From NCBI RefSeq assembly GCF_002844195.1, contig NZ_PEND01000003.1:186001-250000 (forward strand): a stretch of 64,000 nt of DNA. Direction: 5' to 3'. This stretch comes from Halegenticoccus soli (lineage in GTDB: Archaea; Halobacteriota; Halobacteria; Halobacteriales; Haloferacaceae). Below, piece after piece: positions 6,721 to 56,283 of this stretch. A program made the translations under genes and the position numbers. The notes below the pieces were generated by a model. It ran no database searches and was not told the origin of the DNA. It was given only the letters and a program-made list of their open reading frames with translations. Within the stretch, counting starts at the first letter, position 1. The number at the start of each line of letters is the position of its first letter.

Positions 6721-6759
6721 TGACCATCGGATAAAGTAGATTCCCACATATTATAATTT

Positions 6760-33550: not shown

Positions 33551-34414
33551 TCAGCAGAGTAGGCCGGGGCGAACTGTGAGAAACAGCACGCCGCCGAACG
33601 CATAGGTGGTTTTGATGAACAACGAAACAGCACGGCCGGCCGCGTACCCGCGATTGAGACAGACCATCATGGCACCGAGAGGGAGGGAAGCCGCTGTGGC
33701 GGCACAGTGAGGAAAAACTCCGAGGGCACTTGAGAGGACCAACAGACAGACTGCTGCAGCGACGAGAGTCCAAGTGACAAGTTTAGCACGGTCTCGTCCG
33801 AGTACGACCGGGAGTGTCCGCTTCGCAATGAGGTGATCGTGGGGGTAATCAAGGAGATCGAGCAACACTCCGATCGCCGCGAGCTGTAAGAAAAATATGA
33901 GTGACACCGCGATAACGGACGAGGCCATCGAGTTCGTCTGCGCTGCATACCCACCCATCGTCGTAAAGGCGATACCGAGTGGATAATCAATGGTCGTGGT
34001 GACCGGAGTCGTATCAAGATAGGGGGCATGGAGGAGAGCAAGCACGACGACTGGGATGGTGAGAACGGCTGCGACGATTCCAGATGTTATCCAAAGAAAC
34101 CCGACGCAACCCATGAATGTGGCGGCTGAGACGGTAATTGCAACGTGGATCTCGGCTGGAGTGAGAGGGTTGCTAGTGTCCTCGCCTCGAGTGTAGAAAT
34201 CGATGTACCCGTCCTTGAGATGGGCAACGTATACGGCAAGACAGATCGCAAGACTGTGTCCGACCCCTGTCGCAATCGAAAGGTCGTCTGCGAGGAGCGC
34301 ACCGAACCACGACATTGCTACCGCTGGGAGAAGAAAAACGGGTTGGACGTGGATCCAGAGCCCTCGAATCCGTCTGTCGAAGTGAGATCGAAATCGGTGC
34401 AAACGATCGTACAC
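33551..34414 (-). CDS. UbiA-family prenyltransferase-like membrane protein
   Basis: 287 residues with about eight to nine membrane helices. The second UbiA Asp-rich motif is clear (DLLDYPHDHLIAKRTLPVVLG, about 187-207). The first is divergent: KDGYIDF (about 67-73) instead of NDxxD. UbiA enzymes transfer prenyl chains to aromatic or other acceptors in the membrane. It lies divergent from the aromatic-acid CoA ligase. A link to 4-hydroxybenzoate prenylation is tempting but unsupported, since haloarchaea use menaquinone-type quinones and many UbiA proteins make lipids. Confidence 0.7.
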   Translation of the reverse strand: MYDRLHRFRSHFDRRIRGLWIHVQPVFLLPAVAMSWFGALLADDLSIATGVGHSLAICLAVYVAHLKDGYIDFYTRGEDTSNPLTPAEIHVAITVSAATFMGCVGFLWITSGIVAAVLTIPVVVLALLHAPYLDTTPVTTTIDYPLGIAFTTMGGYAAQTNSMASSVIAVSLIFFLQLAAIGVLLDLLDYPHDHLIAKRTLPVVLGRDRAKLVTWTLVAAAVCLLVLSSALGVFPHCAATAASLPLGAMMVCLNRGYAAGRAVSLFIKTTYAFGGVLFLTVRPGLLC

Positions 34415-34689: not shown

Positions 34690-36237
34690 ATGAAGTACAC
34701 TGATGCGTTTGAACGAACTGTCCGGTGTCATCCCTCGAAAGCGGCATTCATCACCGACGATGACCGGGCACTGACGTACGAAGAGCTGGGCGAACGGACG
34801 ACTCGACTCGCGAACGCACTGAACGAACGCGCGGCTGATCGACGAATCGCGACGCTCGCGGTAACCGGCCCAACGGCGATTGAAGCGATGCTCGCGAGTC
34901 AGAAGCGAGGAGTGGGGAACGTACAGCTGCCGTTCCGCGATAGTCCTGGAGCCATCACATCGATGCTCCGCCCGACGGAGGCGAAGGTGCTACTCTTCGA
35001 CGACGCGAACGTTGAGAAGGCAGTCGAGGTGCTCGACCGAACGGAGATCAACACTGGCATACACGCAGGAGAGAAGGCGATCAACCGAGACGATGTTGAA
35101 GCATACGAAGAGATCGTTGCGGGGTCATCTGCCAATCCAGTAGAGCCGACCCCAGACTACGAACACGGCGTGTTTTATACGAGCGGAACAACGAGCACGC
35201 CGAAAGCGGTGTTGTTCGACCAAGAACAGATGTGGTACGGGAGTACTCAGGTGATTATGGAGATGGGTCTCGACGAGGGAGACACGGCACTCGTCACGAC
35301 ACCGTGGTACCACATGGTGACGACTGATGCCTGGATTCTTCCACACTTACAAGCTGGTGCGACGCTCATCCTCCAGCCTGATTTTAATCCAGAAGAATCA
35401 CTTCGACTTGTGAAGAACTACGACGTGACAGGGCTGCTTGCCGTCCCGACGCAGTTACACAGATTGGCTGAGACGCAAGCAGTAGAGGAATACGATGTCA
35501 CGACTCTCTCGTACATTCGAACTGGTGGATCGATCGTAACTGATCGGCTCGTGCAAAAAGCGTCCAGGCACTTAACCGACGGCATCTACAACACCTATGG
35601 GTTGACCGAGGGTGGCCCAAATTTGACGTTCGCGCATCCATCCTCACAGGAGGACCATACGGGAACGATTGGAAAGGAATCGTTCACGTGGGAAATTCGA
35701 GTCGTCGAAATTGCCGACTCTGAGGAAGCATTCGATCCAACGGCGGTCGTCAGTCCAGGCGAGGCTGGAGAACTAATCGCCCGCGGACCAGGTATGAGTG
35801 ACGGATACGTAGATAATCTTGGGGCGACCAAGCGAACGTACGTCGACGGCTGGCTTCGGACGGGCGATTGTGCCGAAGTCGATGAAGACGGCTACTTGTA
35901 CATTGTCGGACGAACTGATAATATGATCGTCAGCGGCGGTGAGAACATCTATCCGGAGGAGATCGAAGATGTTCTCGAGACCTACGAGGGAGTAAAGGAG
36001 GCTGCTGTAGTTGGACTCGAGGACGAACAGTGGGGACATCGAGTCGCGTGCGTTCTCTATACTAATGGATCGACCAACTTCGACATCGACGAACTCGATC
36101 GATTCTGCAAAGACCATGACCAACTGGCCGATTTCAAACGTCCGCGACGGTATGAATTGACAACCGAACCGCTTCCACGAACTGATACTGGAACTCTCGA
36201 ACGTGAGACGATCGTCGTCAAATTCTTCGACGAGTGA
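34690..36237 (+). CDS. Acyl-CoA ligase (probable aromatic acid:CoA ligase)
   Basis: A 515-residue class I adenylate-forming enzyme. Landmarks are the P-loop YTSGTTSTPKAV (about residues 163-174), YNTYGLTEGGP (about 300-310), GWLRTGDCAEVDEDGY (hinge Asp) and GGENIYPEEIEDVL near 417-430. The usual A10 lysine, in PRTxxGK, is replaced by Thr (LPRTDTGTLER, codon 36193-36195, residue 502). That lysine normally serves the adenylation half-reaction, so activity or mechanism may be altered. With the flavoprotein hydroxylase and thioesterase nearby it resembles the phgA-type 4-hydroxybenzoyl-CoA ligase step. Substrate assignment is inferred from context. Confidence 0.85.
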   Translation: MKYTDAFERTVRCHPSKAAFITDDDRALTYEELGERTTRLANALNERAADRRIATLAVTGPTAIEAMLASQKRGVGNVQLPFRDSPGAITSMLRPTEAKVLLFDDANVEKAVEVLDRTEINTGIHAGEKAINRDDVEAYEEIVAGSSANPVEPTPDYEHGVFYTSGTTSTPKAVLFDQEQMWYGSTQVIMEMGLDEGDTALVTTPWYHMVTTDAWILPHLQAGATLILQPDFNPEESLRLVKNYDVTGLLAVPTQLHRLAETQAVEEYDVTTLSYIRTGGSIVTDRLVQKASRHLTDGIYNTYGLTEGGPNLTFAHPSSQEDHTGTIGKESFTWEIRVVEIADSEEAFDPTAVVSPGEAGELIARGPGMSDGYVDNLGATKRTYVDGWLRTGDCAEVDEDGYLYIVGRTDNMIVSGGENIYPEEIEDVLETYEGVKEAAVVGLEDEQWGHRVACVLYTNGSTNFDIDELDRFCKDHDQLADFKRPRRYELTTEPLPRTDTGTLERETIVVKFFDE

Positions 36238-36264
36238 ATCCGGAGGAGTCGATGAGGTGACGGA

Positions 36265-36288
36265 GCGGGGTTCGATTCGAACCTCCGC
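36265..36288 (+). terminator. Strong stem-loop after the CoA ligase
   Basis: GCGG-GGTTCGA-T-TCGAACC-(T)-CCGC forms an 11-bp stem with one bulge, starting 28 bases after the stop codon. No T-run follows, so termination is only one possibility. Confidence 0.4.
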
Positions 36289-36559
36289 ACCCGGAAGAGG
36301 GGACATCGACAATCAGTTGTAGACGTGTCGTTCACCGACGACGGCATTGAGTGTTTAAACCTGATCACAGTCTTACGTACACTTAGATCACCAGACACCA
36401 AGTGACGAATGAGATCAACCAAACGTGGTGAACCAATTCATCTCAACGAACGAGCCAAAATGAGCTCAAATCCTCGTTCACGCTACCTCTGAATTGCCAT
36501 CAACGGTGATGAAGTCTGACTATCTTTGAAGTCTAACTCTCTTACTAGTACTTAATCAC
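36289..36559. other. Intergenic, no features seen
   Basis: The 271 bases between the CoA ligase hairpin and the FAH-family gene hold no credible gene. Confidence 0.4.
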
Positions 36560-37435
36560 TCAGTCGCTCTGTTGGCTCTTCTTGACGTCCACGTCCGCGA
36601 ATGCGAGGTTGCGTTCAGTTACCTCGACGGTCATCGACCCGATGTCTTCGATTGTGGCGTCGATCGTGTCGCCGCCGGTTATTGCGCTAACCCCCTCTGG
36701 CGTCCCGGTAGTGACGACATCGCCGGCTTCGATGGTCATTCCGATTGAGGCGTACTCGACGATGTCGGCACAGCTGTAAATCATCCCGCCCGTATTTTCC
36801 TGCTGCCGAGTCTCGCCATTCAATTGAAGTTCCATCTCGAGGTCGTGTGGGTCGTCGAGTTCGTCGGGTGTGGCGACGCACGGCCCGATAACCGTGAAGG
36901 TGTCGTACGATTTGCGATTCGATCGATCCTGATCACCTCGAACGGAGACATCGAGAAGGATCGTGTAGCCGAGAATCGCGTCCCACACGTCGTCACTCTC
37001 GATATCCTTGACGTCCTCACTCATGACGAAGCCGAGTTCGATCTCATGATCGACACGGCGGTCGTTGAACGGCAGTTCGATGCCATCTTCTGGACCAACG
37101 ACGCTAGAGGGAGCCTTGAGGAAGTAGCCTTTGTCCTCGATAGTGAACCACTCTTCGGTGACGATATCTTTGTCGGCTAACGCCTCTTCGACGTGGTTTT
37201 CGTAGTTCAGCGGCGCTGCGATTACCTTGCCGGGGCGGCGGACGGGCGACTCAATCGTCACTTGCTCGCGGCGATAATCCGGCTCTTTGTCCTCATAGGT
37301 GCTCGCGTCAAGGCCCTTGCGGGCGTACTCCTTCAGTGGATCGTTCGTCTGAAGGTCGAGTCGGTCGGTGACGTCGACGATGCCACCGTCATTCAGCAGA
37401 CCGAGTCGATCGTCGTTGAATCTGACGAGTCGCAT
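36560..37435 (-). CDS. FAH-family hydrolase, probable fumarylpyruvate hydrolase
   Basis: 291 residues. An N-terminal small domain (about 1-70) is followed by the FAH fold (about 75-285) with VIAAPLNYENHVEEA, FLKAPSSVVGP, the metal-binding DHEIELGFVMS stretch (about 136-146), LGYTILLDVSVRGDQ and GDVVTTGTPEGVS. The family splits acylpyruvates; in the gentisate pathway it cleaves fumarylpyruvate to fumarate and pyruvate. Proximity to gentisate 1,2-dioxygenase supports that role. The same family also cleaves 2,4-diketo-3-deoxy-rhamnonate, so a link to the rhamnose locus 30 kb away is an alternative. Confidence 0.85.
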   Translation of the reverse strand: MRLVRFNDDRLGLLNDGGIVDVTDRLDLQTNDPLKEYARKGLDASTYEDKEPDYRREQVTIESPVRRPGKVIAAPLNYENHVEEALADKDIVTEEWFTIEDKGYFLKAPSSVVGPEDGIELPFNDRRVDHEIELGFVMSEDVKDIESDDVWDAILGYTILLDVSVRGDQDRSNRKSYDTFTVIGPCVATPDELDDPHDLEMELQLNGETRQQENTGGMIYSCADIVEYASIGMTIEAGDVVTTGTPEGVSAITGGDTIDATIEDIGSMTVEVTERNLAFADVDVKKSQQSD

Positions 37436-37526
37436 ACGGGGACCAGTGTGGTCCGTCTACATAAATCATCCTTTCTCGGCTATCGAGCTTCAGCACCACT
37501 CTTGCGACGAATATGAGAGGACGGAC

Positions 37527-37709
37527 TCAGTCGCTGGCGTGGATCTGGGCATCGAAGACGTCCTCGGACTCGAAGACGCTACGACAGTCTTCGCACACCA
37601 TCTGCCCGTCGATCGCGTATTCCCAGAGCTTCCCACCGCAGTCCAGACAGTCAAAGTGCGCCTGAACGAACGGATCGTGCTCAGCGTACGGGTTCTCGAA
37701 CTCTGCCAT
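37527..37709 (-). CDS. 60-residue zinc-ribbon-like protein
   Basis: Two CxxC pairs (CLDCGG at about 21-26 and CEDC at 39-42) make a rubredoxin/zinc-ribbon knuckle. The rest is acidic. It sits between the FAH hydrolase and gentisate dioxygenase on the same strand, so it is probably part of the aromatic gene group. The short zinc knuckle could serve protein contact or metal delivery to the iron dioxygenase; this is speculation. TATA-like CATAAAGG lies near 37735. Confidence 0.65.
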   Translation of the reverse strand: MAEFENPYAEHDPFVQAHFDCLDCGGKLWEYAIDGQMVCEDCRSVFESEDVFDAQIHASD

Positions 37710-37864
37710 ATTAACACAGTATGGTCACCAGTTCATAAAGGATTTCCCCCTTTGCTCGTCCGGGTTCAGAAAGAAGCTGATACATCGCATGCCGAGAACC
37801 TGACAACGAACCCCACTCGATGTTCGGTAACTGGTGAAACGCCGTTTGCGAGAGGTGGACGTGG

Positions 37865-38950
37865 TTACTGATCCGCTGCGGACTCGGCGTAGAAGTTGAA
37901 TGCCTCGAACACTGGACGGTCGGTCATGCCGAGGAGGATGGCTTCGTCGTTTTCGGGGTCGTGGTGATGAGGCTTGTCCGGCGGCACGACGAAGATGTCC
38001 CACTGATCCCACTCAAGCGTTTCGCCGTCGACGTGGGTAGTACCCTTGCCCTCGATAACGAAGAAGACCTCCGTGGCATTATGGAAGTGCGCTTCCGTCG
38101 CCTCGGTGAGCAGTTGTGCCCGGAACGACATCGTCGGAAACAGTGGCTCTTGGCCCGTTGTCGGGTTGACGTAGGCCATGCTGTAGCCGTCGTAGGGGTC
38201 AGGGTTGTTGTTTTCGGCACGTTGGCGGAGCGTCTCGAGGATCTCGGTCCAGCCGAATCGGTACGGTGGCGTCGGCTCGCGAATGCCTTCAAACGGACCC
38301 GGAATACCCCCATCGTTTGACTCACCGGCGGGACGAGCGTGCCCGTACTGGGAGTCCCAGTAGCCCTGGGTCTTGGTGACAGGCTGACGCTCGAGTTCAT
38401 GATTCTCGAAGACGTTCGTCGAGTTCAACGAATCGAGAATGAGTGGCAGATCAAGAACGTCGAGCCACATCGCCGTCTCGTCGGAGTCGTTGACGTGGTC
38501 GTGCCACTCCCACTGCGGCGTCGTGATGAGGTCGTTGTTCTCCATCGGGAACTCCTCGCCTGCAACGACCGTCTTCATGTCTTCGGAGCCGTCGATGGTA
38601 AAGCGCAAGGCGTTGGCCCCGTGGCGGTGCGACGGCGCAGTCTCGCCGGGTGAGACGGTCTGGACGCCGACATAGATGGTGTTCGAGATGGCGTTCTGCA
38701 TCCCGGTGTTGATGGGAACGGCGACACGCCGCTGGAAGCCCGGCGGGAGTTCCTCTATCGGCATGTCTCTCTCGACGTGATCGATTGCCTGTTTGATGTC
38801 GCCCCACTTCCAGATGTCGGCTTCGAGATCGTCGTAGACGTGCCCCATCGTGTCTTCAACCTCCCACAGCGGTCGGAGGTCCGTCTCCTCGAGGAGACGC
38901 CTGGTCTCTGAAGTCAGTTCTATGCGCTCTTCAGGATCTTGCTGTGCCAT
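37865..38950 (-). CDS. Gentisate 1,2-dioxygenase
   Basis: 361 residues from the ATG at 38950, a bicupin ring-cleaving enzyme. The N-terminal cupin (about 95-175) shows SHRHGANALRF and later WEWHDHVNDS. The C-terminal cupin (about 265-345) has AHFHNATEVFFVIEG and PHHHDPEND. The length matches gentisate 1,2-dioxygenases of about 350 residues; 1-hydroxy-2-naphthoate dioxygenases are close relatives. It opens gentisate to maleylpyruvate using Fe(II) and oxygen in the cytoplasm. A maleylpyruvate isomerase is not seen in the window. Confidence 0.87.
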   Translation of the reverse strand: MAQQDPEERIELTSETRRLLEETDLRPLWEVEDTMGHVYDDLEADIWKWGDIKQAIDHVERDMPIEELPPGFQRRVAVPINTGMQNAISNTIYVGVQTVSPGETAPSHRHGANALRFTIDGSEDMKTVVAGEEFPMENNDLITTPQWEWHDHVNDSDETAMWLDVLDLPLILDSLNSTNVFENHELERQPVTKTQGYWDSQYGHARPAGESNDGGIPGPFEGIREPTPPYRFGWTEILETLRQRAENNNPDPYDGYSMAYVNPTTGQEPLFPTMSFRAQLLTEATEAHFHNATEVFFVIEGKGTTHVDGETLEWDQWDIFVVPPDKPHHHDPENDEAILLGMTDRPVFEAFNFYAESAADQ

Positions 38951-39096
38951 AGAAGTTGTTTCCGGAAGAAACGCCATAAGTGTGTTGGAGGTTCTCGTGG
39001 CGCGACCGAACTTATCCGACTCGCCCTCTTTCCGGAGCGCGTCCGAACCATCCCGTTTTTCCAAATCTTGATTACCGACTCGTCCAATGACATCGT

Positions 39097-40596
39097 ATGG
39101 CACGAGGACAATCAGCAGCATACGGTATCGATGCCGACTGGAACCGACTCTACATCGGCGGAGAGTGGCGTGGGTCGGCCAGTAGGGAGACCATAGACGT
39201 CGAGGACCCCTCGACGCGCGAGACGGTCGCGACGGTCCCGGCCGGAACCGTGGACGACGTTGACGCCGCCTACGACGCAGCCGCCGCGGCACAGGAGGAG
39301 TGGGGACAGACGCCGCCGGCGCGCCGTCAGGAAGTCGTCCAGGAGCTGCTCAGGTTACTGAATGAGCACGATGAGGAGATAATCGGACTGCTCACCCACG
39401 AGGCCGGCGGCACTCGCGGGATGGGCGAGACGTCGCTTCACTTGGCGTCCGACCAGGCTGCCGAAGCTGTGACGCTCCCGCGACGGCTGAAGGGCGAACA
39501 CGTCGTGTCGAACATCCCTGGCAAGGAGAACATCGTCCAGCGCGTCCCCCAAGGGATTGTCACGGTCATCTCGCCGTGGAACTTCCCGCTGAACCTCTCG
39601 ATGCGGGCGGTCGCTCCCGCAATCGCCGCCGGGAACGCTGTGGTGCTCAAACCGGCGACGAACACCCCCATCGTCGGGGGACTCCTGTTCGCGCGTCTGT
39701 TCGAGGAGGCAGGACTGCCCGGCGGGGTACTGAACGTCATTACTGGACGTGGGTCCGATATCGGCGACCGCGTCGCCAGCCACCCTGAGAGCGACGTGAT
39801 CGCGTTCACCGGGTCGACTGAGGTCGGACGGCGCGTTGCTGCAGCCGCCGGTGAGAACCTTGCGGTTGCCGCGATGGAACTCGGAGGGAACAACGCCCAC
39901 ATCGTCACCGCTGACGCCGACGTTGACGCCGCCATCGACGCCGCCGTGTTCGGGAGCTTCGTTCACCAAGGACAGGTCTGTATTTCCATCAACCGACACC
40001 TCGTCCACGAGGATATCTACGACGAATATGTCCAGAAACTCACCGATCGCGCAGAGGGTCTCCCGGTCGGCAGCGCTCACGATGAGGTTGTCGTTGGTCC
40101 CATCATTGACGAGTCCCAGCGCGACGAGATGCTCAGCTACGTCGAAGAGACCGTCGACGCTGGAGCGACGCTCGAAACAGGTGGTGAAACGGTCGAACTT
40201 GAGGGCGTTAACGACTCGCTGGTCGTTGCTCCGACGGTGCTCTCGGACGTGACCAATGAGATGGCCGTCGCTTGCAACGAACACTTCGGTCCGATCGCGC
40301 CGGTCATCCCCTTCTCGAACGTCGACGAGGCTGTCGAACTTGCCAATGCGACCGAGTACGGTCTCTCGGGGTCGGTCCAAGCGGGCGACATCGGCATGGG
40401 AAAACGCATCGCCGATCGCATCGAGACCGGGATGATCCACGTCAACGACCAGCCAATCAACGACGAGGCGCACGTCCCCTTCAGCGGCACTGGCGCCTCC
40501 GGCGTCGGCGGCTATAACAGCGAGGACTTTCTGGACGAGATTACGGAGAAAAAATGGATCTCGCTCCAGCACGAACCCCGCAAGTTCCCCTTCTGA
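39097..40596 (+). CDS. Aldehyde dehydrogenase, benzaldehyde/vanillin-dehydrogenase-like
   Basis: 499 residues. Motifs are SPWNFPLNLSMRAVAPA, FTGSTEVGRRVA, MELGGNNAHIV (Glu near 261) and QGQVCIS with the catalytic Cys near 295. The GGNN variant and the late HVNDQPINDEAHVPF stretch match aromatic aldehyde dehydrogenases rather than betaine or succinate semialdehyde enzymes. It would oxidise an aromatic aldehyde such as 4-hydroxybenzaldehyde to the acid that enters the CoA-ligase route. It is divergent from gentisate dioxygenase. Confidence 0.88.
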   Translation: MARGQSAAYGIDADWNRLYIGGEWRGSASRETIDVEDPSTRETVATVPAGTVDDVDAAYDAAAAAQEEWGQTPPARRQEVVQELLRLLNEHDEEIIGLLTHEAGGTRGMGETSLHLASDQAAEAVTLPRRLKGEHVVSNIPGKENIVQRVPQGIVTVISPWNFPLNLSMRAVAPAIAAGNAVVLKPATNTPIVGGLLFARLFEEAGLPGGVLNVITGRGSDIGDRVASHPESDVIAFTGSTEVGRRVAAAAGENLAVAAMELGGNNAHIVTADADVDAAIDAAVFGSFVHQGQVCISINRHLVHEDIYDEYVQKLTDRAEGLPVGSAHDEVVVGPIIDESQRDEMLSYVEETVDAGATLETGGETVELEGVNDSLVVAPTVLSDVTNEMAVACNEHFGPIAPVIPFSNVDEAVELANATEYGLSGSVQAGDIGMGKRIADRIETGMIHVNDQPINDEAHVPFSGTGASGVGGYNSEDFLDEITEKKWISLQHEPRKFPF

Positions 40597-40744
40597 ACCG
40601 CTAACCCGCAACTAGTAAGAACGTCCCGCGAGGGAGGTGGGACGCCCATCGCCTCTCTCGGAACGTCGAGTTTCAGAAACGCCACGCCGTCACCGACGCT
40701 TGCGGATGAGATGGATTTACAAGGTATCGACACGGAAACAGACC

Positions 40745-41068
40745 ATGGTGTTAGAACCGGATATTGAAGCGGTCGCCGAGCAGCGTGACACCCTACCGGA
40801 GGCCAGCGATGTCTACGACCACGACGAAACGCCCCACGTTACCGATCTGTTCGACGTGGCGTTCATCAGAGCGCACACCGAGTTCGAGTCGTTCGACGAG
40901 ATGGTCGCCGCAAGCCCCAGCGACGCCGCTTCCGCCGACGAATTAGAACGGGTCCGTCACGGGGAGTGGGACGAGTTTGTCGCCGAGACGACCGACTTCA
41001 AAAACGAGAAGGCACTGGTGATGGCTGCCCGGGACCACTGGGTCGCTAAGAGATTGGACCTGACCTAA
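40745..41068 (+). CDS. Small acidic protein of unknown function
   Basis: 107 residues from the ATG at 40745, 148 bases after the aldehyde dehydrogenase stop. Very acidic and mostly helical, with LFDVAFIRAHTEFESFDEMV and AARDHWVAKRLDL near the C-terminus. No Cys or His motif. It may be cotranscribed with the aldehyde dehydrogenase. I do not recognise the family. Confidence 0.6.
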   Translation: MVLEPDIEAVAEQRDTLPEASDVYDHDETPHVTDLFDVAFIRAHTEFESFDEMVAASPSDAASADELERVRHGEWDEFVAETTDFKNEKALVMAARDHWVAKRLDLT

Positions 41069-41102
41069 GCAGGTCGCACTCATCGCTGCACTGTTACCTG
41101 CA

Positions 41103-41122
41103 CGCTCGTCGCTGGACGAGCG
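41103..41122. terminator. Hairpin between convergent genes
   Basis: CGCTCGTC-GCTG-GACGAGCG is a perfect 8-bp stem with a 4-base loop, placed between the ends of the small acidic gene (plus) and the flavoprotein hydroxylase (minus). It could serve both strands; no T-run follows. Confidence 0.4.
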
Positions 41123-41167
41123 AGGTTACGGTTCAGTAAAACGAGAGAAGATGTCAGTAAGGGCGAC

Positions 41168-42391
41168 TCAGTAGTTTCCGGTCGAGACGATCGGCGGCGC
41201 ACCGTGGGGACCGTACGGTGCATCGTCGAGCCACTCGCCGGCGACCTCGAAGTAGTCGGCGAGTTCGGCGGCCGCCTCCTTTCGGAGGACCGTCAGGGGG
41301 TCTTCGCCCTGGAGATACTCGAGGGCCTGACCAGCCGCGTCGAGATTGTACTCGGCCGCCTTCTCGCGGCGGGCGGCGAACAGTTCGACTTCGTCGCGCG
41401 CAACCGCCTCCGTGCGCGCGTTAAGCGCCACTGCGATGGCCGAGGCGGCCTCGTCGGCGTCAGCGATGCCGGAGTTCATTCCGCGGGCACCGAACGGCGC
41501 CAACAGGTGGGCCGCCTCGCCAGCCAGCAGCACCCGCCGGTGTTCGTCGACGAACGAGTCCGCCATCACCTGGAGGAAGTGGTACGTTGAGACCCACTTT
41601 AGACTGTCCGCATACTCCTCACCCATGATATCGTGGACGAACTCCTGCATTCGCTCAGTGCTGCTGAGTTCGTCGGGGTCGTCGCCCTCGATACACTGGA
41701 TGTCGAGGCGCCAGCCGCCGGTGAATGGCACAAGCAACACATTTCGGCCGTCAGCCTCGGGAGCATCGTAGTGGAACAATCGTTCGAGGTCGGGGTGATC
41801 GTCGTCGATCTCCTCGTCTTCGACGTCGGCGATGATAAAGGCGTTCTCGGACTGATTGCCCTCGAAGTTTGATCCAATCTCCTTGCGAACGGTCGACCCG
41901 CCGCCGTCGGCGCCAATCAGATACTTGGCCTCCCACTCCCGACCGTCGGCCGTCTCGACGTGAACACCGTCGGGTGAGGATTCCACTGACCTGACTTCTG
42001 CTTCCCAGTGGATGCCAACTCCGATATCGGCCAGCGCCCCCAGCATATACTGCTCGGTGACGACCTGTGGGACGCTCGTGAAGTGCGGGATGTCGCCGGA
42101 TCCACCGGGTGAGTCGTATGTCCGGTTGAACACTTCTTTCCCGCGGTATAGTGTCCGGCGAGTCGGCCAGACGAGGCCCTCGTCGACGAGGTTCGTGCCT
42201 AACCCGGGATGGACACGTTCGAGCGTCCGAAGAGTCGAACCGTGGACGTAGATGGCCCGACTCCCCGAGCGGTCTCTGTCTTCGGGTTCCGCCTCGAGGA
42301 TGGCCGTTTCGACTCCACGTGCGTGCAACGCCAGTGCCGTCGTCATCCCGACCGGTCCGGCGCCTGCTACCAGTACTGGTACGTCGCTCAT
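41168..42391 (-). CDS. FAD-dependent aromatic hydroxylase (class A monooxygenase)
   Basis: 407 residues. The FAD GxGxxG motif is VLVAGAGPVGMTTAL (about 6-20). The DG motif is YLIGADGGGSTVRK (about 162-175). The GD motif appears as GEAAHLLAPFGARGMN (about 290-305), with Glu in place of the first Asp. The family includes 3-hydroxybenzoate 6-hydroxylase, 4-hydroxybenzoate 3-hydroxylase and the 4-hydroxybenzoyl-CoA 1-hydroxylase (PhgB type) that triggers an NIH shift. Given the CoA ligase and thioesterase in the same island, the last activity fits best, but 3-hydroxybenzoate 6-hydroxylation also leads to gentisate. Confidence 0.85.
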   Translation of the reverse strand: MSDVPVLVAGAGPVGMTTALALHARGVETAILEAEPEDRDRSGSRAIYVHGSTLRTLERVHPGLGTNLVDEGLVWPTRRTLYRGKEVFNRTYDSPGGSGDIPHFTSVPQVVTEQYMLGALADIGVGIHWEAEVRSVESSPDGVHVETADGREWEAKYLIGADGGGSTVRKEIGSNFEGNQSENAFIIADVEDEEIDDDHPDLERLFHYDAPEADGRNVLLVPFTGGWRLDIQCIEGDDPDELSSTERMQEFVHDIMGEEYADSLKWVSTYHFLQVMADSFVDEHRRVLLAGEAAHLLAPFGARGMNSGIADADEAASAIAVALNARTEAVARDEVELFAARREKAAEYNLDAAGQALEYLQGEDPLTVLRKEAAAELADYFEVAGEWLDDAPYGPHGAPPIVSTGNY

Positions 42392-42739
42392 GAGAACCAG
42401 TGACGAAATACGGCAGTATAGTAGTTGTGGTCGTACACCGTACGATGAACAAGAGATTACAAAAATCGAGTATCCGTGTGTCAGGATTACATCTACCGGG
42501 AGCGTTCTAACTCCAGCAACGATTCCAGTTCTTCAGCGTCTGTGAGTTGTGTATTGAGGTCGACGCTCTCACTGGTTCACCGCATCGGAGTGGCTCACTT
42601 CGTAACGGCTAACACTGACCACAAATGTGAGATGGCCAAAGGAGGCACGATGGCGTCATCCGTCGACGGACTGTAATTCATTTCGAACTACTTTGCGACA
42701 CAGTCGACTTGGTCGGCTAGCCAGCAGGTGTTTAGGATA
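42392..42739. other. Intergenic with a small inverted repeat
   Basis: CGTAC-ACC-GTACG lies 40-55 bases upstream of the hydroxylase start (about 42433-42445) and may be an operator. The rest holds no convincing gene. Confidence 0.35.
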
Positions 42740-44200
42740 TTAGATGAGCCCTATGGTTACAGCACCATGGGTCAATACGGCAGCGATAGGGATGAGCAGC
42801 ACCGTTCGGAGAATTAACAGTGCAGTGAGGTCGCGAATCCGCATGGGGATGTCGTCGAACATGTCGACCATCATCGGGAGCGATGCGGCGAAGAAGATCG
42901 CCTGCGCGCTTGTGACGACTACGACGAAGACTTTCGTGACCAGATCGGCCTTGACGACGAGTGTCGCGCCAATGAAGTACTCACCGGCACCCGCGAGAAT
43001 CGCCGTAGCGGCCATCTGGGGATCCGGAATACCGAGGGCAGTCATCACAGGGACGAGCGGTGCTGCGAGGTACTCGAAAAACGGTGTGTACGCTTCAAGC
43101 GCGAGCACGCACGTTCCAATCGTTAGCACCGTTCCGAGGATCATCGCGGTGAGTTTCGTTCCGTCGACGAACCCGTTGAGCGCAGCACGGGGAATCGATT
43201 CACCCTCTCGTGCGGTTCTCACACCCTCATTAAAGGCAAAACGGAGATAGTCGGTAGGGGTTCCAGTGAACATCGGTTCTGGGTCAGGCTCGGCGACGTA
43301 CTCCTCCGGGACCGTCGAGAGCGGTGGAACGCGAACAAGGACCACCGCTACGATAAGCGTCGCAATAAGGTAGAGCAAAACGAGGATGGGGAAGATATCG
43401 AGCAGATCCAAGACGGCGGCAACCGCACCGACGGTTCCGAGGTTGGCGGTCGCAAAACAGGTACAGATCACGAACACGTCGCGCTTGTTGTACCCACCGC
43501 GATCGAAGACGTTGCGGGTGAGGTAGTATCCGATACTGAACGACCCAAGCCACGACGCCGCACTGTCGAGGGCTGAACGACCCGGGAGATCGAACAGCGG
43601 ACGCATGATCGGTTGGGCTAACGTGCCGATGAACTCGAGACCGCCGAGTTCTGCGAGGAGGTTGACGAAGATCCCTCCGAGCGGGATGACAAGAACGATG
43701 GTGATCATAAGGACATCCCAGGCGATGCCTCCGACGGCGTCGCCGAGCAACCAACTCGGACCGACGCCAAAGAACATCATGACTCCAAGGAACATCGCAG
43801 TTACGCGAAAGGTCCAGAACAATTTCGACGTTTGCCAGTAGTCGACCTCGACGAGCCTCCGGGCTCTCTCGCTTAGGGCGATCGTCCCCTGGTAGTGTAG
43901 CATCGAGATGGTCGTCAGAATACCGCCAGCGAAGAGAACTAGCAGCGTAAACACCTCAACGGCAAAGACCGACGTATCGGTAATGAGCGTCATCAAGACA
44001 TCAAGGGGGATTGTCGTCTGCCCTTCCCATTGAACTGGGAAGAGGAAAAAGAACGCGCCGGTTGCGAACGCGACGATGAACTTCAACGTCGAGTGTAACC
44101 CTTTGTCGACGAAGTGTACCTCGTTGATTGATTTTACCGTGGGAGTCACTGTCTCACCCGATATGTGATCGTCATCTTCCCAGCTCTGGCTACCGAACAT
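42740..44200 (-). CDS. GATE-domain (YjiH-like) membrane protein, copy 1
   Basis: 486 residues from the ATG at 44200; the N-terminus MFGSQSW matches MFKSRPW in the paralogue at 56934-58397, which supports this start. About ten to eleven membrane helices form two nucleoside-recognition (GATE) halves. Shared stretches include NVFDRGGYNKRDVFVI and VPPLSTVPEEYVAEPDPEPMFTG. These proteins are poorly characterised and related to concentrative nucleoside transporters. It lies directly upstream of the aromatic hydroxylase gene on the same strand (348-bp gap), so transport of an aromatic or organic acid is a hypothesis. Confidence 0.85.
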   Translation of the reverse strand: MFGSQSWEDDDHISGETVTPTVKSINEVHFVDKGLHSTLKFIVAFATGAFFFLFPVQWEGQTTIPLDVLMTLITDTSVFAVEVFTLLVLFAGGILTTISMLHYQGTIALSERARRLVEVDYWQTSKLFWTFRVTAMFLGVMMFFGVGPSWLLGDAVGGIAWDVLMITIVLVIPLGGIFVNLLAELGGLEFIGTLAQPIMRPLFDLPGRSALDSAASWLGSFSIGYYLTRNVFDRGGYNKRDVFVICTCFATANLGTVGAVAAVLDLLDIFPILVLLYLIATLIVAVVLVRVPPLSTVPEEYVAEPDPEPMFTGTPTDYLRFAFNEGVRTAREGESIPRAALNGFVDGTKLTAMILGTVLTIGTCVLALEAYTPFFEYLAAPLVPVMTALGIPDPQMAATAILAGAGEYFIGATLVVKADLVTKVFVVVVTSAQAIFFAASLPMMVDMFDDIPMRIRDLTALLILRTVLLIPIAAVLTHGAVTIGLI

Positions 44201-44545
44201 ATTCCGACAAACCGTATCATGGGTCATAAAAACACCGATCACATGTCCACTAACATTCTATTAAAATAATCGTTGAGGAAGCTATAACACAACTGAATTC
44301 TATGGCTAACTGGTAGCGTCGCGCTGGTGACCAAGACAAAAGGAAGATCACTTGTGACGGCCTGTCCTGAAGAAACGGTAGACCCAGTTTCGCGGTTGGC
44401 TCTCTGCTGGCCTAAGGAATCTCTTTCCTTGTAGACTACGTGGAAAGAGGCTCGTAATGGGCGCGGATGTTCTAAGAGAGCTGTTCCGTCGCCAGAGCTA
44501 TGGTAAACCCGGTCTCACGAAGCTGAGTGGTGGTATTGAGCGACG
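44201..44545. other. Intergenic interval
   Basis: About 345 bases between the first GATE gene and the USP gene. It holds the GATE promoter (AT-rich around 44250-44300). No gene seen. Confidence 0.4.
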
Positions 44546-44935
44546 CTACTCGGCCGTACTGAGTATTACTGGTCTCTCAGATTTGAGAATCACGTCTTGC
44601 GTGACGCTCCCGAAAAGTGCTTTTCCGGTCGGCGACCGTTTTCTGCCGGCTATGCTTATCACATCGACATCAAGTTCGTCGGCCGTATCCAGGATCTTTC
44701 GGGTCGCGTCACCGCTTGACTGGCGCACATCGACGACGAAACCTGCCTCTTCCAGCCGCGTGGTAGCTTCTATGACCGATTTGAGTTTCTTTGCATCTGC
44801 CTCGTTGTCGCCACGGAAGACGTGGAAGACGACAACTCGGACACGGTCGGACTCCAGCGGTAGCGTGGTGAGCGATGCGACCTGGTTTTTCGCCCGGTCG
44901 ACCTCAGTGTCGATGCAGAAGAGTACCGTTTTCAT
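44546..44935 (-). CDS. Universal stress protein (UspA family)
   Basis: 129 residues, a single Usp domain. Motifs are [11 protein letters not shown] at the N-terminus, VRVVVFHVF in the second strand and [21 protein letters not shown] near the end. The latter is a G-xx-G-9x-G-like ATP-binding segment with Lys instead of the first usual Gly pairing. A single-gene unit, not clearly tied to the neighbouring genes. Confidence 0.85.
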
Positions 44936-45164
44936 CTACTGATCACTCGATCCAACTGGGTCACTGTGGACTCCACCGATCGATTCGTGGTCTCCCATCT
45001 GTTTAACCTCGTGTTTGTACCCGATTACTTCCTATCGTTATATTATTTTTTGTCCCTTGTTAGCACAGTTCAGTTGTTTCCGTGTCTGACTCCATCTAAA
45101 ACCGGCTCCCCTGACGGTCTCGGGTGCCAATTCGGAGCGTCGACGACTAGTAACCCGCAAACGA

Positions 45165-46667
45165 ATGGTGGAGTTTTTGTGTGTGTCTACCGCATGGGTG
45201 AGCGTGCCACAACCTGCCAACGATAGAGACGACGACCTTGACGAACTCGTCGCGAATCTCTTAGTTCGTGACGCGGACGTCCATGCGGCGACACTGGACG
45301 CGATCACTGCGAAGGGTGATCGGCGTGTCGTGCCGCATTTGATCGAGATACTGATGGTTCATGAGATAGCCAGCAATTGGGACCAGTTTGGCTTCCCTGA
45401 GGTGCTTCGAGAGCACAGTCCACCGCGGTATCTCGAATTACCGGAAGCACGCTGGCCAGGCGTCCGCGATGCATTACGGAGCATCGCTGAACCGGACTAC
45501 GACTCCGGGTACGCTTGGGTCGAGTGGGAAAGCTGGTACTCACAACAGGATATCGACCCGCTTGAGGGATTCGATGAGTGGAAACTACAACTCTATCGGT
45601 CGTTCCTTCCACCTGCGGGTCGACTACTCGACGCTGAATCGCGAGCGTTCGACCTCCAAGACGTTCGCTGGGGAAACTGCGATCCGTCGTTCCTCGCTGC
45701 GTGCAACGAACCGAACTTCGCCCCCGGCGACGCCGTCTCGACAGACGCAGAAGGAGACGAGATGGAGGGGGACTACGAACGCTATCTTCGACCAACTGAC
45801 ACCGTCTTCGGCCTCACCATCGACGACACCGCTTACGCTGTTCCCCGATGGGTACTGTTTCCCCATGAACTTGCGAACCTCTCACTCAAGGATGAATCAG
45901 TGACGCTTAGCTTCTGTACGCTCTGTAACGCTCCCATCTGCTACGACCGGAACGTCGGCGACCGAACGCTGACATTCAACAATACGGGAATGTTGCTCAC
46001 AGGGAACAAGATCATGTTCGACGAGCAGACCGAGAGTCTCTGGAGCCAACATCGCGGAGTGCCGATTGCAGGCGAGTACTTCGAAGATGAGTCCGACATC
46101 CGTCTCGATATCCGTCCAGTCACGCAGACCACGTGGGGAGAGTGGCGCGAAACGCATCCCGAGAGCCTCGCACTCGACATCGAGACCGGGTACGACTTTA
46201 ACTATCACTTCTACGAGAACAACATTGGGTTCTTCCGCCACTATTGGAATGACGAGAATGCAATACAGCCCGGAGTAACCACTGAAGAAGGACAGTTACC
46301 GGAGAAGACCGACGTCTACGGGGTAGTCACCGACGACGGGACGACCGTCCGCGTCTATCCCATCGAAGAAATCGACGAAAACACCATCGAGACAGACGTG
46401 ATCGACGGGCGGGCGATAGTCGTCCTCCGCGACCCCGCAAACGACGTCGCCGTCTACGAAGCCCCGCTGACACCAGTTAAGCGCGACGGCGAGGTGCTCG
46501 TCGATGGCAATAGCGAACGCTGGAGAGTCGCTCACGACGCGCTTGTGAGCGAGGCGGACAGCCGAGAACTGCCTCGCATTCCCGGCCGCCACGGTCTGTT
46601 CTTCGCGTTCCGGTCGCAGTACGACCGCGTCGAAGTTGGGTCGAAGGACCGTCGCCGCTCTCAGTGA
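45165..46667 (+). CDS. DUF3179-domain protein
   Basis: 500 residues from the ATG at 45165; GTG codons at 45198 or 45204 are possible starts, since the first dozen residues are atypical. The N-terminal part (about 15-190) is helical and acidic. The DUF3179 domain follows (about 205-480) with TLSFCTLCNAPICYDR (two Cys), FNNTGMLLTGNKIMFDEQTESLWSQ split across about 260-290, and VTQTTWGEW. Function of DUF3179 is unknown. The Cys pair suggests redox or metal binding. Confidence 0.85.
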   Translation: MVEFLCVSTAWVSVPQPANDRDDDLDELVANLLVRDADVHAATLDAITAKGDRRVVPHLIEILMVHEIASNWDQFGFPEVLREHSPPRYLELPEARWPGVRDALRSIAEPDYDSGYAWVEWESWYSQQDIDPLEGFDEWKLQLYRSFLPPAGRLLDAESRAFDLQDVRWGNCDPSFLAACNEPNFAPGDAVSTDAEGDEMEGDYERYLRPTDTVFGLTIDDTAYAVPRWVLFPHELANLSLKDESVTLSFCTLCNAPICYDRNVGDRTLTFNNTGMLLTGNKIMFDEQTESLWSQHRGVPIAGEYFEDESDIRLDIRPVTQTTWGEWRETHPESLALDIETGYDFNYHFYENNIGFFRHYWNDENAIQPGVTTEEGQLPEKTDVYGVVTDDGTTVRVYPIEEIDENTIETDVIDGRAIVVLRDPANDVAVYEAPLTPVKRDGEVLVDGNSERWRVAHDALVSEADSRELPRIPGRHGLFFAFRSQYDRVEVGSKDRRRSQ

Positions 46668-46718
46668 CCCATCTGTTTGCACGTCGTCCGGCAGTGTTCA
46701 CTCAGCGCCTAGGGTGAT

Positions 46719-47126
46719 TCAACTGGTATCAACACCACTCTCCAAGGCGTCTCGCAGGTCGTCGGGGATCGTAACGCCGTGGTCGCCGCCGATCGGGACG
46801 CAGACGCGGTATTCGGCCCCGTCGAAGACGACCTCACCGTCGTGGGTCGCGTGGTAGTCGAACCGAACACTTGACTCTCCGACGACTGTCTGCAGTTCAA
46901 TCTCGACCTCGTCGCCCCCCTTCACTTGTCCGTGGAAGTCGAACTCTATCGAGACGAGAGGGAGACCTAGTTCGTGTCGCTCGTGGAGTTCCCAGTAGGG
47001 CCAACCGATCTGCTCCATGAACATATCCGAGGTCTCGTGGAGTGCGTCGATCATTCGCGGATAGTGCGCGATTCCAAATGGGTCCGTATCCGAAAACCGT
47101 ACGGTCCAATTGCGTGTGAAACTCAT
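46719..47126 (-). CDS. Acyl-CoA thioesterase, 4-hydroxybenzoyl-CoA thioesterase type
   Basis: 135 residues from the ATG at 47126, a single hot-dog fold. The active-site Asp is in RFSDTDPFGIAHYPR (Asp near 14), and the later SIEFDFHGQVKGGDEV matches the 4HBT central helix/strand. It hydrolyses acyl-CoA esters. Within the aromatic island, release of gentisate from gentisyl-CoA (PhgC-type) is the most attractive role. It ends 52 bases from the convergent DUF3179 gene. The exact thioester is inferred. Confidence 0.8.
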   Translation of the reverse strand: MSFTRNWTVRFSDTDPFGIAHYPRMIDALHETSDMFMEQIGWPYWELHERHELGLPLVSIEFDFHGQVKGGDEVEIELQTVVGESSVRFDYHATHDGEVVFDGAEYRVCVPIGGDHGVTIPDDLRDALESGVDTS

Positions 47127-47555: not shown

Positions 47556-50500
47556 ATGACTACGAGTCCGACCATTGCTGGCGACGATACCGACACTGAA
47601 CCAACAGCGGACGCGCGTGCCGAGTATGACTACGTCTCGGACGATGTCGACCGCCCGGATCTCGTCCGCGATCTCGACTCGCGCGTTGACGGCGACGTGC
47701 GCTTCGACAAGTACACCCGGCAGCTGTACGCGACCGATGCCTCCGCCTACGAGGCGGTCCCCATCGGCGTCGTCTTCCCGACGTCGACCACAGACGTCGC
47801 GAGCATCGTCTCCTACTGCGCCGAACGAGAAATCCCCGTTCTCCCGCGTGGTGGCGGGACGAGTCTCGCCGGACAGGCAGTCAATGAGGCGGTCGTCCTC
47901 GATTTCACCCGGTATATGGACGACATCGTTGACATCGATCCCGATGACCAATTGACGCGCGTCCAGACCGGTGTCGTTCTCGCCGATCTCAACGAACAAC
48001 TCGCGCCGCACGGACTGAAGTTTGCGCCCGATCCGGCGGCGGGTGACCGCAGCGTCGTCGTCGGCGCCATCGGAAACAACTCGACAGGTGCGCACTCGCT
48101 GGTGTACGGAAAGACGGACGCGTATGTCGAAAAGTGTGAAGTCGTGCTCGCCGACGGAACGGTTGTCACACTCGGCGAGATAGATGTCGCCGACATGCGT
48201 GAGCGAGCGGATCCGGTGGGAAATATCCTCGAACGCGTCTTCGCGGAACTTATCCGCATCCTTGACGACGAAAGCGACGAGATCCGAAATCGGTTCCCGA
48301 ACCTGAAGCGCAACGTCTCCGGGTACAATCTCAACGTACTCGTTAAGGAGGCCGAGACGGGGACCGTCAACCTTGCGCGATTACTAGCCGGGAGCGAAGG
48401 CACTCTCGCCATCGTCACCGAGGCCGAACTCTCGCTCGAACCCCTTCCCGAGACAAAGGCGGTGTCGCTGTTGTTCTACGAGAGCGTCCTTGAGGCCGTG
48501 ACCGACGTCCAGTACGTTCTCAAACATGAGCCAGCGGCGGTCGAACTTATTGATGACGTCCTCATCGGTCTTGCGCGCGAGACGGCCGAATTTCAGGAGA
48601 TCGCGGCGCTCGTCCCTGACGGTGCTCAAGCCGCTCTGCTGGTCGAATTCTATGCCGAGGATAACGACCACGGGCGCTCACAGACCGCCAACCTCTTCGC
48701 CGACCGTGTTCCCAAGGACGACAGCGAGGGTGCCGAATCCACAGACCGTCTGGACGACGACGAGACACTCTCCTTCGAGGGCCTTGAAGCCCACGAAGCG
48801 GCCGAGCGAGAGACGTTCTGGAAGCTACGCAAGGCAGGACTTCCGATATTGCTCTCGCGGACGTCCGATGAGAAGCACATTAGCTTCATCGAGGATTGTG
48901 CAATCCCGCCCGAGCACCTTCCCGCATTCGTTGAGCGGTTCCAGTCGTTGCTCGTTGAGATGGGTCGTGACAGCGACGCGGCGTTCTACGCCCACGCTGG
49001 ACCTGGCGTGCTCCATGTTCGCCCACTGATAAACACAAAAGCCGGACGCGACCGCGAGGACATGGTCGCCATCGCCGATGAGATAACCGATATGGTTGTC
49101 GAGTTTGGCGGCTCCGTCTCTGGCGAACATGGCGACGGCCGAGCGCGGACTCAGTGGAACCGGAAATTGTACGGCGATAACCTCTGGGAGTCGTTCAGGA
49201 GTCTGAAGACAGCGTTCGACCCCAACTGGCTGCTCAACCCCGGAACCGTCTGCGGTGACCATGACATGCTCGAGAACCTCCGGTATGACGATGCCTACAG
49301 TTACGACGCCGGCTTCGAGCCGGCGTTGAACTGGCGGAACGAGAATGGGATGCAGGGGATGGTCGAACTCTGTCACGGGTGTGGTGGCTGCCGGGGTGGA
49401 CAGGAAACCACCGGTGGCGTCATGTGCCCGACCTATCGGGCAGCCAACGAGGAGATCGCGGCCACTCGAGGTCGCGCGAATCTCCTTCGGCGTGCGATGA
49501 GCGGTGACCTCCCGGACGATCCCACGGACGATGAGTTTGCCGAGGAGGTACTCGACCTCTGTATCGGCTGTAAGGGCTGTGCGCGTGACTGCCCGAGCGA
49601 GGTCGACATGGCAAAACTGAAAACCGAGGTCCAGTACGCCCGCCATCAAGAGCAGGGAGCGAGCGTACGCGATAGACTCTTCGCCAACTTCGACCGACTC
49701 GCCCCCCTTGGCAGTGCACTCGCGCCGCTTTCGAACATGGTGGAGTCGCTTCCCGGTGCCGGAGCTATCGCCGAGCGAACTTTAGGTATCGCCCGCGAGC
49801 GGTCGTTGCCGACATTCCACCGCGAGACGGTCCAAGACTGGTTCGAGGCCCGTGGCGGCTCACGCGTCCCTGAAGCCGAGGCCGAGCGAACGGCCGTCTT
49901 CTTCGTCGACACGTACACCAACTACAATCATCCCGAGGTCGGCAAAGCGACGGTCCGCGTCCTTGAAGCCGCCGGCGTACACGTCGATGTAGCGAGACGG
50001 ACAGACAGCGGCCGACCAGCGCTCTCGAAGGGATTCATCGACAAGGCACGGGAGTCAATGCACTCGAACGTCGCAGCACTCGCACCTCGTGTTGACGATG
50101 GGTGGGATGCCATCCTCGCGGAGCCCTCCGACGCAGTGATGTTCCAGTCCGACGCGCTCGACCTCCTGGACGGTCGGTCCGTGGAGTCCGTTGCAGCGAA
50201 CGCGTATGGTGTCTGTGAGTATCTCGACGCGTTCCGCCTCGACGAGAACATCGACTGGGACGCGCCCGCCGAATCGGTAGTCTACCACGGCCACTGCCAC
50301 CAGAAGGCCACGAAGAAAGACCACCATGCCGTCGGTGTCCTCCGACGTGCGGGCTACCAGGTGGACCCGCTCGACTCCGGCTGTTGTGGCATGGCGGGGT
50401 CGTTCGGCTACGAGGTCGAACATTACTCGATGAGCCAGTCCATCGGCGATATCCTCGTCGACCAGATCGCAGACAGCGATGCCCGCGTCGTCACCGCACC

Positions 50501-50639
50501 GGGCACATCCTGTCGAACTCAACTCGGCGACAGATGCCTCGATCCAGTTCCCGAAGATAGTTCGCTGGCTGGCAGTAACCTCGACGGTGAAGAACCGCCG
50601 ACGCCGATCGAACTGCTCGCCCACGCAATCTCGCGGTGA
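47556..50639 (+). CDS. FAD and Fe-S oxidase, D-lactate dehydrogenase-like
   Basis: 1027 residues, combining a FAD-binding type 4 oxidase (about 65-560), a 4Fe-4S region and a CCG-domain C-terminus. Motifs are PRGGGTSLAGQAV, GNNSTGAHSLVYGK and GSEGTLAIV for FAD. Iron-sulfur ligands are CHGCGGCRGG (about 608-617) and CIGCKGCARDC (about 670-680). The CCG motif is in DSGCCGMAGSFG. The arrangement is that of GlcD/GlcF fused or respiratory D-lactate dehydrogenase, passing electrons to quinone. Lactate or glycolate oxidation is plausible; lactate is an end product of non-phosphorylative rhamnose breakdown. Confidence 0.88.
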   Translation: MTTSPTIAGDDTDTEPTADARAEYDYVSDDVDRPDLVRDLDSRVDGDVRFDKYTRQLYATDASAYEAVPIGVVFPTSTTDVASIVSYCAEREIPVLPRGGGTSLAGQAVNEAVVLDFTRYMDDIVDIDPDDQLTRVQTGVVLADLNEQLAPHGLKFAPDPAAGDRSVVVGAIGNNSTGAHSLVYGKTDAYVEKCEVVLADGTVVTLGEIDVADMRERADPVGNILERVFAELIRILDDESDEIRNRFPNLKRNVSGYNLNVLVKEAETGTVNLARLLAGSEGTLAIVTEAELSLEPLPETKAVSLLFYESVLEAVTDVQYVLKHEPAAVELIDDVLIGLARETAEFQEIAALVPDGAQAALLVEFYAEDNDHGRSQTANLFADRVPKDDSEGAESTDRLDDDETLSFEGLEAHEAAERETFWKLRKAGLPILLSRTSDEKHISFIEDCAIPPEHLPAFVERFQSLLVEMGRDSDAAFYAHAGPGVLHVRPLINTKAGRDREDMVAIADEITDMVVEFGGSVSGEHGDGRARTQWNRKLYGDNLWESFRSLKTAFDPNWLLNPGTVCGDHDMLENLRYDDAYSYDAGFEPALNWRNENGMQGMVELCHGCGGCRGGQETTGGVMCPTYRAANEEIAATRGRANLLRRAMSGDLPDDPTDDEFAEEVLDLCIGCKGCARDCPSEVDMAKLKTEVQYARHQEQGASVRDRLFANFDRLAPLGSALAPLSNMVESLPGAGAIAERTLGIARERSLPTFHRETVQDWFEARGGSRVPEAEAERTAVFFVDTYTNYNHPEVGKATVRVLEAAGVHVDVARRTDSGRPALSKGFIDKARESMHSNVAALAPRVDDGWDAILAEPSDAVMFQSDALDLLDGRSVESVAANAYGVCEYLDAFRLDENIDWDAPAESVVYHGHCHQKATKKDHHAVGVLRRAGYQVDPLDSGCCGMAGSFGYEVEHYSMSQSIGDILVDQIADSDARVVTAPGTSCRTQLGDRCLDPVPEDSSLAGSNLDGEEPPTPIELLAHAISR

Positions 50640-56075: not shown

Positions 56076-56283
56076 CTCCGGAAAGAGACGATGCCGACGT
56101 CTCCGCTCCGAGTCGTTTTTATGTTTATCTCCTTCGGCGCGGCTCAATCCGAGATGCACGCGGTCCACTCGGTACCTTACTCGGTGTTGGGAGACGCGTC
56201 AGGACTGAATGTGCGCAGGAACCCCCCATATGGGAGTTCTGCTCTGTGTGGCTTCCTTGACCGGTCTCCTAGCAGCGTCACAA

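Follow-up and report, generated by a model that had tools for sequence, protein, structure and literature searches.

Can genes that are dispersed on both strands and interrupted by unrelated ones still form one inherited pathway? This question is raised by a 64-kb stretch of DNA, here called the window, from the 4.6 Mb genome of Halegenticoccus soli, whose relatives are haloarchaea. A preliminary description had placed in positions 34690-47126 an acyl-coenzyme A (CoA) ligase, an FAD hydroxylase, a 4HBT-type thioesterase, gentisate 1,2-dioxygenase, an FAH hydrolase and an aldehyde dehydrogenase, and family searches confirmed all of them. It had also proposed that they constitute one pathway of the PhgA/PhgB/PhgC type, leading from 4-hydroxybenzoate to gentisate, a proposal that is backed by the co-occurrence of the genes, by the neighbourhoods they share and by the hydroxylase phylogeny. 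The genes probably represent a haloarchaeal Phg-type set, in which the hydroxylase would be a 4-hydroxybenzoyl-CoA 1-hydroxylase. The core genes are listed below; coordinates are positions within the window, and family calls were made from translations and family searches of its proteins.

34690-36237, + strand: AMP-forming acyl-CoA ligase (AMP-binding Pfam, E 7e-56), the proposed 4-hydroxybenzoate--CoA ligase (PhgA role)
36560-37435, - strand: FAH-family hydrolase (FAA_hydrolase), a proposed maleyl-/fumarylpyruvate hydrolase
37865-38950, - strand: probable gentisate 1,2-dioxygenase, a bicupin protein (TIGR02272, below its cut-off; open reading frame (ORF) to 39292, conserved start 38950)
41168-42391, - strand: class A FAD hydroxylase (FAD_binding_3), the proposed 4-hydroxybenzoyl-CoA 1-hydroxylase with acyl migration (PhgB role)
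46719-47126, - strand: hotdog thioesterase (4HBT_2; ORF to 47180), the proposed gentisyl-CoA thioesterase (PhgC role)

In the proposed pathway, the ligase would convert 4-hydroxybenzoate to 4-hydroxybenzoyl-CoA, and the hydroxylase would add a hydroxyl group at C1, para to the phenol OH. The CoA-thioester group would then move to C2 (an NIH shift), producing gentisyl-CoA, from which the thioesterase would release gentisate. Ring opening would be performed by gentisate 1,2-dioxygenase, and the FAH hydrolase would split the ring-opened product into pyruvate and a C4 acid. Uptake probably occurs through an SLC13 permease, under the probable control of an IclR regulator. A free carboxylate hydroxylated at the ipso position would be prone to losing CO2, so that migration of the acyl group away from C1 is plausible for the thioester only; this would account for the joint occurrence of the ligase and the thioesterase with the hydroxylase. 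Both of these enzymes are expected for acyl migration and are not needed for hydroxylation of free 3-hydroxybenzoate.

Such a route is known from bacteria, in which phgABC convert 4-hydroxybenzoate to gentisate by thioester formation, hydroxylation with a 1,2-shift, and hydrolysis (PMC7862547). PhgA, PhgB and PhgC of Brevibacillus laterosporus were reported by Zhao et al. 2018, as cited in PMC7862547 and PMC10983741. The window resembles the Phg system in having the same three enzyme kinds that feed gentisate dioxygenase; it differs in that its genes are scattered on both strands. In archaea, Haloarcula sp. D1 forms gentisate from 4-hydroxybenzoate, and the NIH shift was supported by deuterated substrates (Fairley et al. 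2002, as related in PMC3572157), in keeping with the statement of the preliminary description that Haloarcula degrades 4-hydroxybenzoate via gentisate. The evidence from D1 is biochemical; Haloarcula plasmids carry the same hydroxylase (78-79% identity). According to a 2013 paper, no gene sequence of a 4-hydroxybenzoate 1-hydroxylase was known (PMC3572157), and the literature searched contained no paper naming archaeal genes for the conversion of 4-hydroxybenzoate to gentisate. Thus, the archaeal NIH-shift reaction seen biochemically in 2002 gains candidate genes, and the archaeal enzyme is tied to a bacterial one reported in 2018.

The hydroxylase provides a link to these bacterial systems: it is 47-51% identical, over the full length, to Brevibacillus, Geobacillus and Alicyclobacillus proteins whose genes neighbour those for gentisate breakdown. 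In the Bacilli relatives, the hydroxylase gene occurs with that of the dioxygenase and, in several cases, also with those for the thioesterase, FAH hydrolase and ligase. The order is hydroxylase-thioesterase-dioxygenase-FAH-ligase in Brevibacillus panacihumi (49% identity) and hydroxylase-thioesterase-FAH-dioxygenase in Geobacillus jurassicus; further homologues are found in B. fluminis and Alicyclobacillus. A gammaproteobacterial metagenome-assembled genome encodes a homologue with 55% identity alongside a dioxygenase, an FAH hydrolase, a fused ADP-forming acyl-CoA synthetase (ACD) and a GST-type isomerase, and in Kibdelosporangium persicum a fused ACD adjoins the hydroxylase homologue. In a maximum-likelihood tree, the proteins of haloarchaea, Bacilli, the gammaproteobacterium, K. 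persicum and actinomycetes are split by a 100/100 branch from the MhaA-like hydroxylases. Taken with the identity and full-length match, this branch makes the haloarchaeal hydroxylase orthologous to the enzyme of the Bacilli gentisate operons. The predicted structure (pLDDT 87.8) has p-nitrophenol 4-monooxygenase PnpA as its best solved fold match. The carbon attacked by PnpA is likewise a substituted one, in para position to a phenol OH.

Inheritance as a unit was assessed by searching the proteins of the window across 146 genomes belonging to the same order, with counts that depend on the E-value cut-offs. The hydroxylase is present in 20 genomes; the dioxygenase and the FAH hydrolase occur in 19 each, all of them among these 20. 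The thioesterase (above 100 bits) is found in 16 genomes, every one with the hydroxylase; 17 genomes encode the ligase, 16 of them together with the hydroxylase. No genome at the cut-off used has the dioxygenase without the hydroxylase, even in genera where others have both. Naive hypergeometric p-values for co-occurrence with the hydroxylase range from 1e-16 to 6e-23 (about 6e-23 for the dioxygenase and FAH), though they overstate independence because the genomes are related. Counted by genus, the dioxygenase and the hydroxylase are confined to the same 14 of 57 genera (p about 1e-13). The ligase and thioesterase are therefore co-inherited with the hydroxylase and gentisate dioxygenase, as the Phg route predicts.

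Physical linkage agrees with this picture. The comparison covered regions of about 40 kb from 20 genomes plus one Haloarcula plasmid, and several of them have in common the order IclR-(UbiA)-ligase-SLC13-MBL-ABC-(gamma-CA)-ACD alpha-ACD beta-thioesterase-dioxygenase-ABC-FAH-chemoreceptor-hydroxylase. Other regions, including the window, are rearranged relative to this order. The hydroxylase and dioxygenase are on one contig in 16 of 19 genomes, at a median distance of 8.5 kb. The window thus holds a haloarchaeal cluster in reshuffled form; the set is not a chance scatter and is inherited together though dispersed, an illustration that scattering of its genes need not keep a pathway from being passed on as a unit. 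As the preliminary description had stated, the genes are split over both strands and separated by unrelated ones. Those in between include a Gate permease and a DUF3179 protein besides small ORFs. Its limits, 34690-47126, hold for the core genes and miss the part of the set that extends to 53-62 kb. This part belongs to the set because the following three genes, reaching to about 62 kb, recur in 13-19 related regions:

53195-54529, + strand: CoA-binding/succinyl-CoA-ligase-like protein, ACD alpha-like (Pfam; homologues in 17 related regions)
54627-56168, - strand: SLC13-type permease, probably for aromatic acid uptake (Na_sulph_symp; in 13 related regions)
61307-62071, - strand: IclR-family regulator, probably of the pathway (IclR_C and HTH_IclR; homologue in 19 related regions, adjoining the ligase in many)

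The remaining core enzymes were compared with known proteins as well. Feruloyl-CoA synthetase and 4-chlorobenzoyl-CoA ligase are among the best solved relatives of the ligase, and the FAH hydrolase is 37% identical to its counterpart in the B. panacihumi operon. The dioxygenase is the sole match of the genome to TIGR02272, with 210 bits (E 3e-62), below the 442-bit cut-off; the operon dioxygenase of B. panacihumi scores 349 bits, likewise below it. In an alignment of thioesterases, the catalytic Asp of the (T/A)DPxGIA motif (Asp17 of 4HBT, Asp16 of BH1999) is kept in the window and in the other haloarchaeal copies. The alignment included 4HBT of CBS-3 and, taken from sequence, the Brevibacillus protein. 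The roles of the catalytic and substrate-binding Asp residues of 4HBT and BH1999 have been described (PMC516016). BH1999, the gentisyl-CoA thioesterase of Bacillus halodurans, shares with the haloarchaeal proteins the hotdog 4HBT-like family, the catalytic Asp and a gentisate gene context.

Many haloarchaea add an ACD to the set, unlike the bacterial Phg system. In 15 of the 21 haloarchaeal regions, genes for both ACD subunits, alpha and beta, are part of the set, for the most part directly next to that of the thioesterase or the dioxygenase, and ACD loci linked to the hydroxylase set were found in haloarchaea and in two bacteria (L039:5055-7639; L129:7920-9983; L154:4971-7010). Genome G076 has an ACD and lacks the thioesterase; ACD might therefore release gentisyl-CoA with a gain of ATP, or else activate the acid, and both are possible roles. 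The CoA-binding protein of the window (53195-54529) is alpha-like and of a different, beta-less subtype, with SHTAAP in place of SHTGALTG. Most CoA-binding homologues in the related regions belong to the other subtype and are accompanied by a beta subunit, and Haloarcula marina carries both alpha-like subtypes. No close free beta subunit for the protein of the window was found in the genome, where beta-like domains occur only elsewhere.

A further line of evidence comes from actinomycetes, whose homologues form the sister clade to the hydroxylases of haloarchaea and Bacilli. About 65 actinomycete loci encode a homologue with 42-49% identity; its companions there are a PabAB-type aminodeoxychorismate synthase, an ADC-lyase-like protein and a benzoate-CoA-ligase-like protein. 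This cluster is widespread in actinomycetes. At L036:3089-12014 and at loci L082-L161 it comprises the hydroxylase homologue, DAHP synthase, PabAB, a PabC-like protein and two AMP-binding ligases, and the PabAB-type protein of L036 scores above the TIGR00553 cut-off. The hydroxylase of the window is thus linked to a 4-aminobenzoate cluster, and since the sister clade resides in such clusters, a para-substituted benzoyl-CoA substrate fits. The actinomycete cluster is predicted to turn 4-aminobenzoyl-CoA into 5-aminosalicylyl-CoA through an acyl shift of the same kind. The literature searched gave no description of this cluster and no primary paper on the biosynthesis of 5-aminosalicylate. A broader and clearly more tentative idea is that all these proteins belong to a family of 4-substituted-benzoyl-CoA 1-hydroxylases which move the thioester group. 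One arm, in haloarchaea and Bacilli, would degrade 4-hydroxybenzoate to gentisate; the other, in the approximately 65 actinomycete genomes, would make a 5-aminosalicylyl-CoA building block from home-made 4-aminobenzoate, and ACD may recover ATP from gentisyl-CoA in most haloarchaea.

Several observations weigh against the assignment of the window to a Phg-type pathway. The thioesterase is missing from genomes G076, G114 and G133, and the ligase types near the set vary between genomes. The bacterial reference is itself indirect, as the operon of B. panacihumi served as a congeneric stand-in for PhgA/B/C of B. laterosporus PHB-7a. Similarity to this stand-in is distant, with 28% identity for the ligase, 30% for the thioesterase and 33% for the dioxygenase. 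The column of the substrate-binding Asp32/Asp31, which in 4HBT binds the ring, holds His in the haloarchaeal thioesterases and Asp in B. panacihumi; membership of the 4HBT class I or gentisyl-CoA thioesterase subfamily is therefore not claimed. Moreover, the next closest hydroxylase family, the MhaA-like proteins, hydroxylates a meta-hydroxylated acid.

This last point bears directly on the main alternative, in which the protein of the window is a 3-hydroxybenzoate (or 3-hydroxybenzoyl-CoA) 6-hydroxylase, and the ligase and thioesterase serve another substrate. Para-hydroxylation of 3-hydroxybenzoate likewise yields gentisate, and Haloferax D1227 uses this compound via gentisate (PMC4005966). 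The MhaA-like family is of the 3-hydroxyphenylacetate 6-hydroxylase type, to which the described MhaA belongs (PMC10983741). However, its members are only 26-36% identical to the enzyme of the window, lie beyond the long, fully supported branch, measure about 510-550 amino acids, and are found in homogentisate clusters, where a DUF2783 protein and homogentisate dioxygenase frequently accompany them. The 3-hydroxybenzoate 6-monooxygenase model NF006021 (PRK08163) gives the hydroxylase just 22.7 bits against a cut-off of 459, and has no match above that cut-off anywhere in the genome. A free-acid route also leaves the co-inherited ligase and thioesterase unexplained, and this alternative is unlikely.

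A salicylate route, with C5 hydroxylation of salicylyl-CoA to gentisyl-CoA followed by hydrolysis, would follow the same ligase-hydroxylase-thioesterase logic, and salicylate-using haloarchaea have been reported (PMC4005966). It is nevertheless very unlikely: the salicylyl-CoA 5-hydroxylase model NF006101 (PRK08255) fails to match the hydroxylase of the window, its first 390 positions (the hydroxylase part) are unmatched genome-wide, and the genome contains relatives of its reductase half only. The association of the actinomycete branch with 4-aminobenzoate synthesis genes also speaks against salicylate. The genes might, finally, be unrelated neighbours that chance has gathered in a catabolic part of the genome, as their location on both strands, the interspersed unrelated genes and the lack of a conserved order would allow; co-occurrence over 14 genera, repeated proximity and compact bacterial operons make such a coincidence extremely improbable. 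The Phg-type assignment, with 4-hydroxybenzoyl-CoA as the predicted substrate of the hydroxylase, is the preferred explanation.

Three further genes lie beside or between those of the set:

33551-34414, - strand: UbiA-like prenyltransferase adjoining the ligase (UbiA, 39.9 bits)
39097-40596, + strand: aldehyde dehydrogenase (Aldedh), possibly accessory (e.g., aromatic aldehyde to acid)
40745-41068, + strand: small conserved protein of 107 amino acids, belonging to no known family, beside the hydroxylase (53-68% conserved in other genomes)

Six other haloarchaeal regions also have the prenyltransferase gene next to that of the ligase. The aldehyde dehydrogenase recurs less regularly: its gene is present as first described, about 8 of the related regions have it close to the set, and the pathway role given to it is weakly supported. 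An ORF running opposite to it (39355-40611) is long, matches no family and was not taken as a gene. The 107-amino-acid protein adjoins the hydroxylase in nearly all other genomes that have the latter; it was considered as a DUF2783 (MhaB-like) partner, and a Pfam search gave no match. Perfect 7-base inverted repeats were searched for upstream of the window genes, and none were found.

The conserved start of the thioesterase, 47126, coincides with the end of the stretch originally delimited. Beside the thioesterase is an FAD/Fe-S oxidase (47556-50639; D-lactate dehydrogenase-like, 1027 amino acids), with homologues in 7 related regions. Elsewhere in the window, an alpha-L-rhamnosidase of 1103 amino acids with discoidin-like domains (6916-10227) adjoins a sodium:solute symporter (5092-6747).

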